This document shows, one piece after another, positions 12,738-16,131 of a DNA stretch of 35,613 nt; position 1 is the stretch's first letter; each line of letters opens with the position of its first letter. A program made the translations under genes and the position numbers. Under the pieces are notes generated by a model, which made no database searches, was not told where the DNA came from, and worked only from the letters and a program-made list of their open reading frames with translations. This DNA is from Sneathiella sp. (GTDB lineage Bacteria > Pseudomonadota > Alphaproteobacteria > Sneathiellales > Sneathiellaceae), in contig NZ_JARGOQ010000037.1 in NCBI RefSeq assembly GCF_029233945.1, positions 1 through 35,613 of the forward strand, in the 5' to 3' direction.

Positions 12738-13850
12738 CTAGACCGCCGCGTCCAGATATTCACGGTAATAGCGGTTGCCGAGGGAGGTCAGGATTTCATA
12801 CGGGATCGTCTCCGCATGGGCGGCCACTTCATCAAGCGGCACCGCGCCGCCGATCAGATCGACAAAGGCACCAGGCTGGCAGTCTTCCGCCGGAACCTTG
12901 CTGACATCGATGGTGATTATATCCATGGAAACGCGCCCTACTACTGGAACCTTGATCGTCTTAACCGCACATTCAGCCTTATTACCCAGGGCGCGGAAAT
13001 AGCCGTCTGCGTAGCCCACAGAAACGGTCGCAATCCGGCTTGATCCTTCAGTTCGGAATGTCGCACCATAGCCAACGGGAATTTCGCTGTCAACGTCCTG
13101 AACCTGCAGGATACGCCCGCGTAACCGCACCACTTCGCGCATCGGATTGGCCGTACTCGCGCGGGGGTTGCCGCCAAAAAGCGCGATGCCGGGGCGGACC
13201 ATATCGAAATGAAACTCGGCGCCCAGAAATATCCCGGCGGAATTGGCGAAGGAGACGGGCGTCTCACGCAAGGCTTCGGGCAGGATGGAGCGGAAAAAAT
13301 GAAGTTTTTCAAGCTGTTCGCGGTTCATCGGATTATCGGGCATATCAGCGCAGGCCAAATGGCTCATCACGAAATCGATCTTGATGTTTTCCAGTAGCTC
13401 CGGCGTTGCCGCCAGCTCCCGTATTTCCGCCTCCAGCAGGCCAAGGCGGGTTATCCCCGTATCGAGATGGAGAAGCGCGTGAAGCGGCCCATGGTCTGTC
13501 GCATACGCCGCCCATTGCCGGATGTCATGGAGGGAGTTGAGGACCGGCACCAGATTATGCGCGACATAGACCTCCTCGGTCTCGGGCAGGATCCCGCCCA
13601 GAATATGGATGGCCGCGTCGGGGAGAAGGGCACGGAGCGTGACGCCTTCGCCGGGCAGCGCGACGAAGAAGCGGCGGCATCCCGCCTCATAAAGGGCCGG
13701 GCCGACCCGCTCGATCCCGAGGCCGTAGGCATTCGCCTTGACCGACGCCGCACATTCGGCGGGCGCGGCCTGATCCCTCAGCAGGCGGTAATTCTCTTTC
13801 AGGGCCGCAAGGTCGATCGTCAGATGCGCGCCGGCCAGTTTCGGATCCAT
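12738..13850 (-). CDS. alr: Alanine racemase
   Basis: A PLP-dependent racemase making D-alanine for peptidoglycan. The cofactor lysine is Lys38 in SVKANAYGLG. The second catalytic base is Tyr261 in PVGYGATF. GYADGYFRAL (279-288) is also conserved. At 370 residues it is full length, with an N-terminal TIM barrel and a C-terminal beta domain. It lies 16 nt downstream of dnaB. The dnaB-alr pair recurs in several alphaproteobacteria and in enterobacteria. Confidence 0.96.
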   Translation of the reverse strand: MDPKLAGAHLTIDLAALKENYRLLRDQAAPAECAASVKANAYGLGIERVGPALYEAGCRRFFVALPGEGVTLRALLPDAAIHILGGILPETEEVYVAHNLVPVLNSLHDIRQWAAYATDHGPLHALLHLDTGITRLGLLEAEIRELAATPELLENIKIDFVMSHLACADMPDNPMNREQLEKLHFFRSILPEALRETPVSFANSAGIFLGAEFHFDMVRPGIALFGGNPRASTANPMREVVRLRGRILQVQDVDSEIPVGYGATFRTEGSSRIATVSVGYADGYFRALGNKAECAVKTIKVPVVGRVSMDIITIDVSKVPAEDCQPGAFVDLIGGAVPLDEVAAHAETIPYEILTSLGNRYYREYLDAAV

Positions 13851-13866
13851 CTACTATCGTCTCCGC

Positions 13867-15345
13867 TCAATGATGGTCCGGCAGATATTCGTCGGAGATA
13901 TAATCGCCAAAGCGCGTGAATTCGGGCTTGAAATGCAGCTTGATAATGCCGATCGGGCCATGCCGCTGCTTGCCGATGATGACTTCCGCGAGGTTATGCA
14001 GGCGCGACATGCGCTCCTGCCAGTCGGCATGCTCGGGCGTGCCCTCCGACGGTGCCTTGCGTTCCTCGTAATAGCCTTCGCGATAGACGAACATGACCAC
14101 GTCGGAGTCCTGCTCGATCGAGCCGGATTCGCGAAGGTCAGAAAGCTGCGGGCGCTTGTCATCGCGGTTCTCGACCTGTCTCGACAACTGCGACAGCGCG
14201 ATCACGGGGATATCGAGCTCTTTCGCGATGGCTTTGAGGCCCTGCGTCACCTCGGATATTTCCTGGACGCGATTATCCTGACGCCGGCCGGAGCCCTTCA
14301 TCAACTGCAGATAGTCAACCACGACAAGGCCGAGGCCATGGCTGCGTTTGAGCCGCCGCGCGCGCGTCCGCAGCGCCGCGATGGAAAGCGCGGGCGTATC
14401 ATCGATATAAAGCGGCAGTTCGGAGAGCCGCGCCGTTTCCGGCACCAGCTTGTTGGCAAACTCGTCATCGCTGAGGTCGCCGCGGCGGAGTTTTTCCGAG
14501 CTGATCTCGGTCGCCTCCGCGAGGATACGGCCAACCAGCTGTTCCGCCGACATTTCGAGGGAGAAGAAGCCGACAACCGCGCCCTCCTTGCCGCCCGTCG
14601 CATGATAGGCCTTCGCCGCGTTATAGGCGATATTGGTGGCGAGCGAGGTTTTCCCCATGGAGGGACGCCCGGCAAGGATGAGAAGGTCGGATTTATGCAA
14701 CCCGCCGAGCTTGCCGTCCATGTCTTTCAGGCCCGTTGTCACGCCGACCAGATTGCCATCGCGCTGGAACGCCTCCTCAATGGATTTGAGCGCCTCATCC
14801 ACGGCAACGCGGACCGGCATCAGCGCGCCTTCATGCGCCCCGTTCTCGGCGAGGGAGAAGAGTTTCTGCTCCGCATTCTCGATTTGCGACTGGGAGGTTT
14901 CCTCCAGGTCCGAATCATAGGCGGTGTTGACAATGTCTTCGCCCAGCAGGATCAGTTCGCGCCGCATGGCAAGGTCATAGATCAGCCGGCCGTAATTTTC
15001 CGCATTGATGATGGTGGTGGCGGAGGCGGCGAGGCGGGCCAGATATTGCGAGCCACCGATATCGGCAAGGCCCTCGTCGCGGTCGAAATAGGATTTGAGC
15101 GTGACCGGATCGGCGATTTCCCCGCGCTCGATCAGCAAGGTGGCGGCGTCGTAAATGCGCTGATGCACATCCTCGGCGAAATGTTCCGGCTTCAGGAAGC
15201 CCGAGACCTTCGCTGCCGCATCGTTATTGACGAGAATCGCGCCGAGCAGATCCTGCTCTGCCTCTATATTATGCGGGGCCGTGCGATAGGCGGGGCCATT
15301 GCTATCCTCGTCCAGACGGCCGTCATTAAGCGATACGGTTTCCAT
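13867..15345 (-). CDS. dnaB: Replicative DNA helicase DnaB
   Basis: The hexameric fork helicase, 492 residues. The N-terminal helical domain starts at about residue 22 (PHNIEAEQDLLGAIL). The RecA-like motor has Walker A GRPSMGKT at 226-233 and the DnaB motif VVDYLQLM further on. There is no intein. ATG 15345 has no clear Shine-Dalgarno. It is the first gene of the minus-strand run. Its upstream region carries a DnaA-box palindrome 54-78 bp before the start, suggesting a link to replication initiation control. Confidence 0.97.
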   Translation of the reverse strand: METVSLNDGRLDEDSNGPAYRTAPHNIEAEQDLLGAILVNNDAAAKVSGFLKPEHFAEDVHQRIYDAATLLIERGEIADPVTLKSYFDRDEGLADIGGSQYLARLAASATTIINAENYGRLIYDLAMRRELILLGEDIVNTAYDSDLEETSQSQIENAEQKLFSLAENGAHEGALMPVRVAVDEALKSIEEAFQRDGNLVGVTTGLKDMDGKLGGLHKSDLLILAGRPSMGKTSLATNIAYNAAKAYHATGGKEGAVVGFFSLEMSAEQLVGRILAEATEISSEKLRRGDLSDDEFANKLVPETARLSELPLYIDDTPALSIAALRTRARRLKRSHGLGLVVVDYLQLMKGSGRRQDNRVQEISEVTQGLKAIAKELDIPVIALSQLSRQVENRDDKRPQLSDLRESGSIEQDSDVVMFVYREGYYEERKAPSEGTPEHADWQERMSRLHNLAEVIIGKQRHGPIGIIKLHFKPEFTRFGDYISDEYLPDHH

Positions 15346-15398
15346 GGAGGAATACTAACATACTTTCGAATGCACGCGGAAAGATCGTTTTTAAAAAA

Positions 15399-15423
15399 GC
15401 TGTGGATAAGGGTTATCCCCAGC
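15399..15423. promoter_or_regulatory. DnaA-box palindrome upstream of dnaB
   Basis: TGTGGATAA (15401-15409) is the reverse complement of the strong DnaA box TTATCCACA. TTATCCCCA (15413-15421) matches the box at eight of nine positions in the opposite orientation, 3 bp away. Together they form a 25-bp palindrome, GCTG-T-GGATAA-ggg-TTATCC-C-CAGC, with one mismatched pair. It lies between the rplI terminator and the dnaB start, where it could act in dnaB regulation. Confidence 0.6.
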
Positions 15424-15440
15424 CTGTGAACTTCGGGGAT

Positions 15441-15472
15441 AAAAAAACGGCGCCGCAAAGGGCACCGTTTTT
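15441..15472 (-). terminator. Intrinsic terminator of the rpsF-rplI operon
   Basis: Read on the minus strand, ACGGTGCC and GGCGCCGT form an 8-bp stem (one G-U pair) around a 6-nt loop, followed by seven T residues (15447-15441). It begins about 27 nt after the rplI stop. It should isolate this operon from dnaB downstream. Confidence 0.85.
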
Positions 15473-15498: not shown

Positions 15499-16131
15499 TT
15501 ACGCGTCGTCCTTGGTTTCTTCCGTCTCGGCATCAACATCAACACCGGCGGCAACCTGCTCAAGTTCCTCGACATCCACATCGGCGGTGGATTCAAAAAC
15601 ATTGACGACGGCTTCGTCGCGGCCATCGAGCTTGGCTTCGGCGGCTTCCTCAACAGATTCGCCGCGTGCCTGAATTTCCGCTTCCTCGTTCGAGCGGGCA
15701 ATGTTGACCGTGACCGAGACAGCGACTTCCGGATGCAAACGCACCTTGATGTCATGCAGGCCGAGTGTTTTCAGGACCTTGTCCAGCTCGATCTGCTTGC
15801 GGCTCACGGTGAAGCCGGCCTCGGTAACCGCTTTCGCGATATCCTGCGTGCTGACAGAGCCGTAAAGCTGCTGGGATTCGGAGGCCGCGCGGATCAGGAC
15901 AACGGCTTCGCCGTCGAGCTTCTCGCCGACTTTTTCCGCTTCCTCGCGGCGTTTCAGGTTATCCGCTTCGAGCTGGGCCCGCTGGGCTTCGAAAACCGAG
16001 AGGTTTTCCTTGCTCGCCCGGAGCGCCTTGTTCTGCGGCAACAGGTAATTGCGGGCATAACCGTTCTTGACCGAAACGACGTCCCCCATTTGACCGAGTT
16101 TCTCAATTCTTTCCAGTAATACTACTTCCAT
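15499..16131 (-). CDS. rplI: Large-subunit ribosomal protein bL9 with long acidic tail
   Basis: The start is ATG 16131 ([20 protein letters not shown]), overlapping the upstream stop as TGATG; the frame extends further upstream but only through the overlapping gene. Residues 1-148 are the complete L9 with N-domain (GYARNYLLP), connecting helix and C-domain ([18 protein letters not shown]). Residues 149-210 are an added tail very rich in Glu, Asp, Ala and Val. Typical L9 is about 150 residues, so the tail is an extension of about 60. It binds 23S rRNA at the base of the L1 stalk. The terminator at 15441-15472 follows it. Confidence 0.95.

Follow-up and report, generated by a model that had tools for sequence, protein, structure and literature searches.

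A predicted DnaA-operated array of four boxes before the replicative helicase gene dnaB in Sneathiella

The DnaA regulon of Caulobacter, with dnaB and dnaQ among its members, is said to go back to Hottes (2005), and the G-boxes and W-boxes of the Caulobacter oriC reportedly to an original study by Taylor (2011). Predicted DnaA boxes were described before both Caulobacter dnaB and dnaQ, each gene being assigned to the DnaA regulon (PMC8203912). In Mycobacterium tuberculosis, enrichment of the dnaB upstream region by DnaA was noted in vitro; a mutant DnaA showed less binding there together with under-expression of dnaB (PMC7738170). Escherichia coli DnaA was reported to prefer paired boxes 2-3 bp apart, which are listed in direct orientation (PMC11317965), while the W-boxes (TCCCCA) of the Caulobacter oriC were described as binding DnaA very weakly and as requiring an adjacent G-box (PMC4285127, PMC4468827). 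A link between DnaA and dnaB is already known as a concept; the four-box array and the abutting box module presented below were not found described in the literature searched, which had most subscription journals outside its reach.

The box array in the rplI-dnaB gap

In the window, i.e., the whole stretch of 35,613 bp of Sneathiella DNA that was analysed, dnaB lies on the minus strand together with the following features.

12738..13850 (-): alr, alanine racemase, the next gene 3' of dnaB, on the same strand
13867..15345 (-): dnaB, replicative helicase, 492 aa (NCBIfam replicative DNA helicase NF006606, 743 bits against a cut-off of 540)
15352..15360 (-): predicted extended -10, TG-T-TAGTAT, 12 nt before the dnaB ATG
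15401..15442 (-): whole predicted array, A>B> <C D>, 42 bp, four DnaA-box-like 9-mers
15401..15409 (-): box D, TTATCCACA, perfect DnaA box, closest to the promoter; at least 7/9 matches in 18/20 Sneathiella loci
15413..15421 (+): box C, TTATCCCCA, opposite in orientation to A, B and D; at least 7/9 matches in 18/20 loci
15425..15433 (-): box B, AAGTTCACA, degenerate in its own genome (5/9), better in other species; at least 7/9 matches in 11/20 loci
15434..15442 (-): box A, TTATCCCCG, weak and W-like, adjoining B; at least 7/9 matches to TTATCCACA or TTATCCCCG in 17/20 loci
15443..15472 (-): rplI intrinsic terminator hairpin, recognised by fold, position and T-tract
15499..16131 (-): rplI, ribosomal protein L9, neighbour upstream of dnaB

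The 153-bp gap between rplI and dnaB holds the rplI terminator, the boxes and the predicted promoter, the array being located between the terminator and the predicted extended -10. Read on the dnaB strand, the array is TTATCCCCG-AAGTTCACA-ggc-TGGGGATAA-ccc-TTATCCACA, with A and B abutting and with 3 bp both between B and C and between C and D. Two of these boxes, TTATCCACA at 15401-15409 (-) and TTATCCCCA at 15413-15421 (+), had been recognised in the initial annotation as an inverted pair with a 3-bp gap, 54-78 bp before the helicase gene; the pair was confirmed, as was the distance from the dnaB start at 15345 (-). The description of the site as a palindrome was accurate for the inverted C-D pair, which forms part of a larger structure of four boxes.

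The 3' end of box C is TCCCCA, the same as the Caulobacter W-box consensus (taken from PMC4285127). Box A ends in TCCCCG in its own genome and, across loci, frequently in CCCG or CCCA as opposed to the canonical CACA. The final two bases of box B were invariant across 21 loci, and the 5/9 match of this box was also noted in the closest relatives of its own genome. In this genome and in close relatives, box A (15434-15442) shares bases with the T-tract of the rplI terminator, a hairpin (15443..15472) that was absent from the listing of the consensus terminator scan.

Conservation within the genus and beyond

Identities of 82-96% were found between DnaB of the window and that of its nearest Sneathiella-named relatives, among the best 80 of 548 matches. 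The array A>B> <C D> could be placed in 20/20 Sneathiella loci, with C and D separated by 3 bp in 17 and by 2 bp in 3, and was also placed in L160 and, by eye, in G023, so that it was seen in 22/22 readable dnaB upstream regions. These 22 loci, counted with duplicates taken once, come from 21 genomes of the genus, out of 24, plus another Sneathiellales contig (L041); the remaining genus genomes (G007, G013 and G017) were without a readable dnaB upstream region, and L022 was without upstream sequence. More than 1 bit of information was present in 31/39 array columns and less than 0.5 bit in 52/60 flank columns, values that are inflated by the placement of each array at its best site within 300 bp. 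Weak spots were box D of L037 and L042 and box C of L039, each of which is degraded.

The placement was complemented by a scan of 88 orientation-distance combinations, performed with a generic box matrix that was built from a consensus and was free of training on these loci. The pairings implied by the array, 5 of 6 of which fell in the scanned range, reached 15, 16, 17, 18 and 18 of 20 loci as opposed to 0.05-0.2 in dinucleotide shuffles, and these five led all combinations. All 88 combinations were raised in Sneathiella (mean 3.85/20 vs 0.12), because single boxes are strong in this genus, and the 20 loci are related by descent, so they do not represent 20 independent events. Loss of the site from close relatives had been named beforehand as grounds for abandoning the proposal; when looked for, the site was found to be kept before dnaB across the genus. 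Two of the features by which membership in a DnaA regulon is judged were present, namely boxes close 5' of a predicted promoter and the retention of such boxes at the orthologous promoter in the genus and partly beyond.

The C-D palindrome with at most 1 mismatch was found at 9 places in 9/24 Sneathiella genomes, each of them 56-96 bp upstream of the DnaB match, compared with 2 places for the mirrored control in the 24 genomes. In the 3.63-Mb genome of the window, this palindrome (TGKGGATAANNNTTATCCMCA, at most 2 mismatches) occurred at 1 place and its mirrored control at 0. The corresponding B-C pattern was noisy at up to 2 mismatches (17/24 genomes); at up to 1 mismatch it was found at 7 places, 6 of them at dnaB. 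Single boxes (TTATNCACA, at most 1 mismatch) were not enriched in the window (9 observed vs 9.9 expected), and perfect copies of TTATCCACA numbered 23 in the genome as compared with 10 for the mirrored control. For the other 22 perfect copies, partners with a score of 6.7 or more (of 8.5) were sought within 40 bp: 20 copies had none, and 2 had one of 6.75, offset by 40 bp in one case and by 18 bp in the other. Box C (TTATCCCCA) scored 7.9 of 8.5 by the same matrix.

Outside the genus, 31 genomes were compared, one per family, including one (G024) from the family of Sneathiella; five others of the original 36 were dropped, for want of a DnaB match (G043, G048 and G055), for a partial match (G054) or for an upstream region of about 100 bp (G049). 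The top geometry among the 31 was the abutting >> arrangement at 9 bp, which was noted in 8/31 as compared with 0.25 expected. A matrix for A, B and the spacer, trained on 21 Sneathiella arrays, reached p<=0.01 in 9/31 of these genomes (0.3 expected), each time in the orientation seen in Sneathiella, with 22/31 falling below, and scores of at least 12 bits were obtained for 28/76 dnaB upstream regions vs 2/596 control windows of the same loci. Among 68 further loci, drawn from the best 80 of 548 DnaB matches and therefore mostly Rhizobiales and rich in Bradyrhizobium, p<=0.01 was reached in 29, and 25 of the 26 listed were in the flipped orientation, as in TTATGCCCG-TTATCCACA. Judged by these predicted sites, an abutting weak-strong pair before dnaB is widespread in alphaproteobacteria and far from universal.

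Inspection by eye of many Bradyrhizobium loci (within L058-L108) revealed conserved GTGTGAATCGTGCATAAG-like sequences at about -110 to -175 from the DnaB match. These have GANTC inside the flipped module, and CcrM methylation could affect DnaA binding there.

Exact matches were also sought in 385 genomes of the class. The exact C-D palindrome was present in 5/385, comprising 3 Sneathiella dnaB sites, G234, where it adjoins the PPSR gene, and G393 (L158 1501-1521), where it stands before an open frame that resembles, by eye, a B12-dependent ribonucleotide reductase. The exact A-B consensus was present in 9/385, compared with 2 places for the mirrored control, and is of limited use as a genome-wide marker; by tblastn, 2 of the 9 matches (L180 and L181) were at dnaB. 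Readings of the others were made by eye. An exact A-B module was noted just 5' of an apparent dnaQ (L176 1501-1518, G113), upstream of an apparent scpA for chromosome segregation (L182 1501-1518, G138) and near an apparent mnmG (L183), as read from the translations. In L175, L177, L178 and L179, no replication link of the exact module was seen in the translations; in L178 and L179 (G394 and G120, of one genus) the module lies near an apparent ahcY.

Promoter spacing, the candidate origin and the proposed role of the array

An extended -10 (TRTGnTAnnnT) was found 12-13 nt from the ATG in 20/21 Sneathiella loci, the motif having been picked after inspection of the loci and ties resolved to the most downstream match, while the distance itself was not imposed. 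The -35 position appeared poor by eye, and a sigma-70 scan gave no promoter before dnaB. The dnaB mRNA is probably leaderless, since the extended -10 is only 12-13 nt from the ATG. If transcription is assumed to begin at the ATG, the centre of box D falls near -60, -70 or -81, and class I activators such as CRP act at similar upstream positions. The concern that the transcription start might place the site far from the promoter was answered by the predicted start, relative to which box D lies near -60.

The array start and the -10 were separated by 71 bp (2 loci), 85 bp (2), 94-96 bp (11) and 105-106 bp (6) in the 21 loci, and by 107 bp, counted by hand, in G023. Thus, 19/21 loci were at 85, 94-96 or 105-106 bp, with L037 and L042, at 71 bp, out of phase. 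The Rayleigh p at a period of 10.5 bp was 3e-7 over the 21 loci, a statistic inflated by shared descent, and 0.017 over the 7 distinct spacings, the 21 spacings not being treated as independent. The DnaB tree requires 7 spacing changes, with 10/19 of its inner branches weak, and it is suggestive that close relatives differ by about two turns (85 bp in L033, 105 bp in L034 and 106 bp in L035). Outside the genus the -10 is seldom recognisable, and distances were obtained only for L023 (66 bp) and L024 (94, 62 and 61 bp). Clustering of the spacings suggests contact of the bound array with RNA polymerase on one helical face.

In Caulobacter, the origin is flanked by PPSR and hemE. The hemE-PPSR gap, the probable Sneathiella oriC judged by this arrangement and by its cluster of boxes, was read before PPSR (Pfam PF03618) in 8 Sneathiella genomes, and an opposed upstream HemE was recognised by eye in the 2 that were translated. 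Three abutting boxes near PPSR were seen by eye in 8/8 gaps, e.g., TTATCCCTG-TTATTCACA-TTACTCACAgg, and an additional flipped pair like TGTGGATAA-CGGGGATGA was present on the hemE side in 4 genomes (L165-L168); the PPSR gap of G024 (L173) was without the three-box run. The probable oriC, with abutting weak and strong boxes, extends over about 1130-1480 of the PPSR-oriented strand in L165-L172, and that of the window's own genome (L172) has no perfect TTATCCACA. The same kind of box module sits at dnaB and in the candidate oriC. From the oriC flank to the antipode, dnaB was located at 0.73 (G022) and 0.79 (G012) in two single-contig Sneathiella genomes, from which its chromosome position was taken, the genome of the window being in 114 contigs.

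From the observed sequence and geometry of the array, their conservation, the uniqueness of the palindrome and the like module at the probable oriC, we infer, with moderate confidence, DnaA binding, cooperativity and activation, i.e., that the array is a predicted DnaA-operated control element that activates the dnaB promoter. DnaA would bind the strong box D and, with help from neighbouring DnaA molecules, also occupy box C, box B and the weak A. So occupied, the array would lie on one DNA face, two to four helical turns (about 20, 30 or 40 bp) 5' of the -35 position. From there it would act like a class I activator on a promoter whose extended -10 is paired with a poor -35, and helicase synthesis would vary with how much DnaA is present and in which nucleotide state. 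The earlier proposal that helicase supply is tied to DnaA has gained ground in this respect, both from genus conservation and the A-B module at dnaB in part of the class and from the like module in the probable oriC and the published Caulobacter and Mycobacterium links.

A broader reading can be offered only tentatively, namely that the weak-strong abutting pair is an alphaproteobacterial DnaA assembly module at oriC and dnaB, through which helicase synthesis would read the cooperative, nucleotide-sensitive assembly state that licenses the origin, the module being flipped at dnaB in Rhizobiales and elaborated into a four-box, helically phased activator array in Sneathiella. It has long been asked how cells match the supply of the replisome to initiation, and a short conserved array makes the matter directly testable, with boxes, spacing and helical phase as handles to be set against helicase output and initiation timing.

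Repression, by which DnaA bound to the array would keep helicase low until drawn to oriC, seems unlikely. The same site evidence (conservation, array and geometry) would serve this reading, and both activation and repression are described for DnaA (PMC8203912); the array, however, ends at least about 20 bp upstream of the -35 except in L037 and L042, where the degraded box D is about 6 bp away, and this position upstream of the -35 favours activation over repression. In addition, the four DnaA-regulated Caulobacter promoters reported as tested were all activated (PMC3193534), and weaker DnaA binding in M. tuberculosis is described as accompanying lower dnaB expression (PMC7738170).

Action of the array mainly as a DnaA sink or converter like datA or DARS, placed before dnaB by history, is very unlikely. 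The A>B> <C orientation does reproduce the E. coli DARS core pattern of two like boxes and one opposed, but with spacings of 9 and 12 bp rather than the 12 and 14 bp of DARS1, and such a role would leave the clustered -10 distances unexplained. Titration, which the initial annotation had offered as an alternative, was weakened by the site being single and small, by the location of dnaB at 0.73 (G022) and 0.79 (G012) toward the antipode of the oriC flank in the 2 genomes and by the helically clustered promoter distances.

Recognition of the palindrome by another DNA-binding protein, with an incidental likeness to DnaA boxes, is considered highly improbable. Endings in CCCG or CCCA instead of CACA are common in box A, but like modules fill the probable Sneathiella oriC, and the generic box matrix recovered the geometry untrained on the loci. 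Moreover, CtrA-type TTAA-N6-8-TTAA sites were absent within 200 bp in 21/21 loci, and GANTC sites were seen in 5/21, one each.

That the C-D palindrome acts as RNA, either as a second terminator or as a leader hairpin, is scarcely credible, even though the fold in its own genome is strong (-13 kcal/mol, z -3.6) and is followed by T6. Four or more T within six bases after D were noted in 5/20 loci (L003, L033, L034, L039 and L020), as opposed to 15/20 without a T-run, and one of the 9 C-D pairs was compensated, A-T to G-C, in 2/21 loci, whereas the middle C-D position was unpaired in 10/21 loci without a compensated change and the outer B-C positions in 8-10 of 21. The predicted dnaB transcript, furthermore, begins downstream of the palindrome. 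An RNA hairpin or second terminator was rejected from this combination of a strong fold in one genome with a T-run and pairing that are poorly kept across the genus; two Rfam matches were both below gathering scores (E 0.12 and 0.11).

A chance pair of boxes is a practically negligible explanation, for although single near-boxes in the window are about as frequent as chance predicts, C-D at up to 2 mismatches has no second copy in the genome and 9/9 genus matches lie at dnaB, in agreement with the initial view that a paired inverted layout is unlikely for random boxes.

Comparison with described systems

Titration sites of the datA type lie near oriC and are replicated early, unlike dnaB, which was located at 0.73 and 0.79 of the half chromosome from the oriC flank in two related genomes. 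The DARS core of E. coli, as presented in PMC5742627, has boxes II and III alike and box I opposed, an arrangement matched by A>B> <C. Its spacings, taken from DARS1 of MG1655 alone, are 12/14 bp as opposed to 9/12 bp here, and the array differs further in its extra box D and its promoter location.

The double boxes of E. coli are likewise comparable, in that the reported pairs, found at promoters of genes linked to replication, have gaps of 2-3 bp and C-D and B-C each have a gap of 3 bp; the pairs listed there are direct (PMC11317965), whereas B-C and C-D are inverted pairs and A adjoins B. M. tuberculosis resembles Sneathiella in the DnaA site reported upstream of dnaB but belongs to another phylum (PMC7738170). 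Closer in descent is Caulobacter crescentus, also an alphaproteobacterium, with predicted boxes before dnaB and dnaQ and DnaA-dependent expression; the consulted part of that account gives no layout (PMC8203912), and no description of four boxes in this geometry, of the weak-strong module or of how widely the class shares it was found there. The oriC boxes of Caulobacter belong to an origin, the array of Sneathiella to a predicted promoter, where TTATCCACA and not TGATCCACA is the strong box; in both, as far as the Caulobacter boxes are described in these sources, a weak TCCCCA box stands beside a stronger one, box C being of this type and box A nearly so (PMC4285127, PMC4468827).
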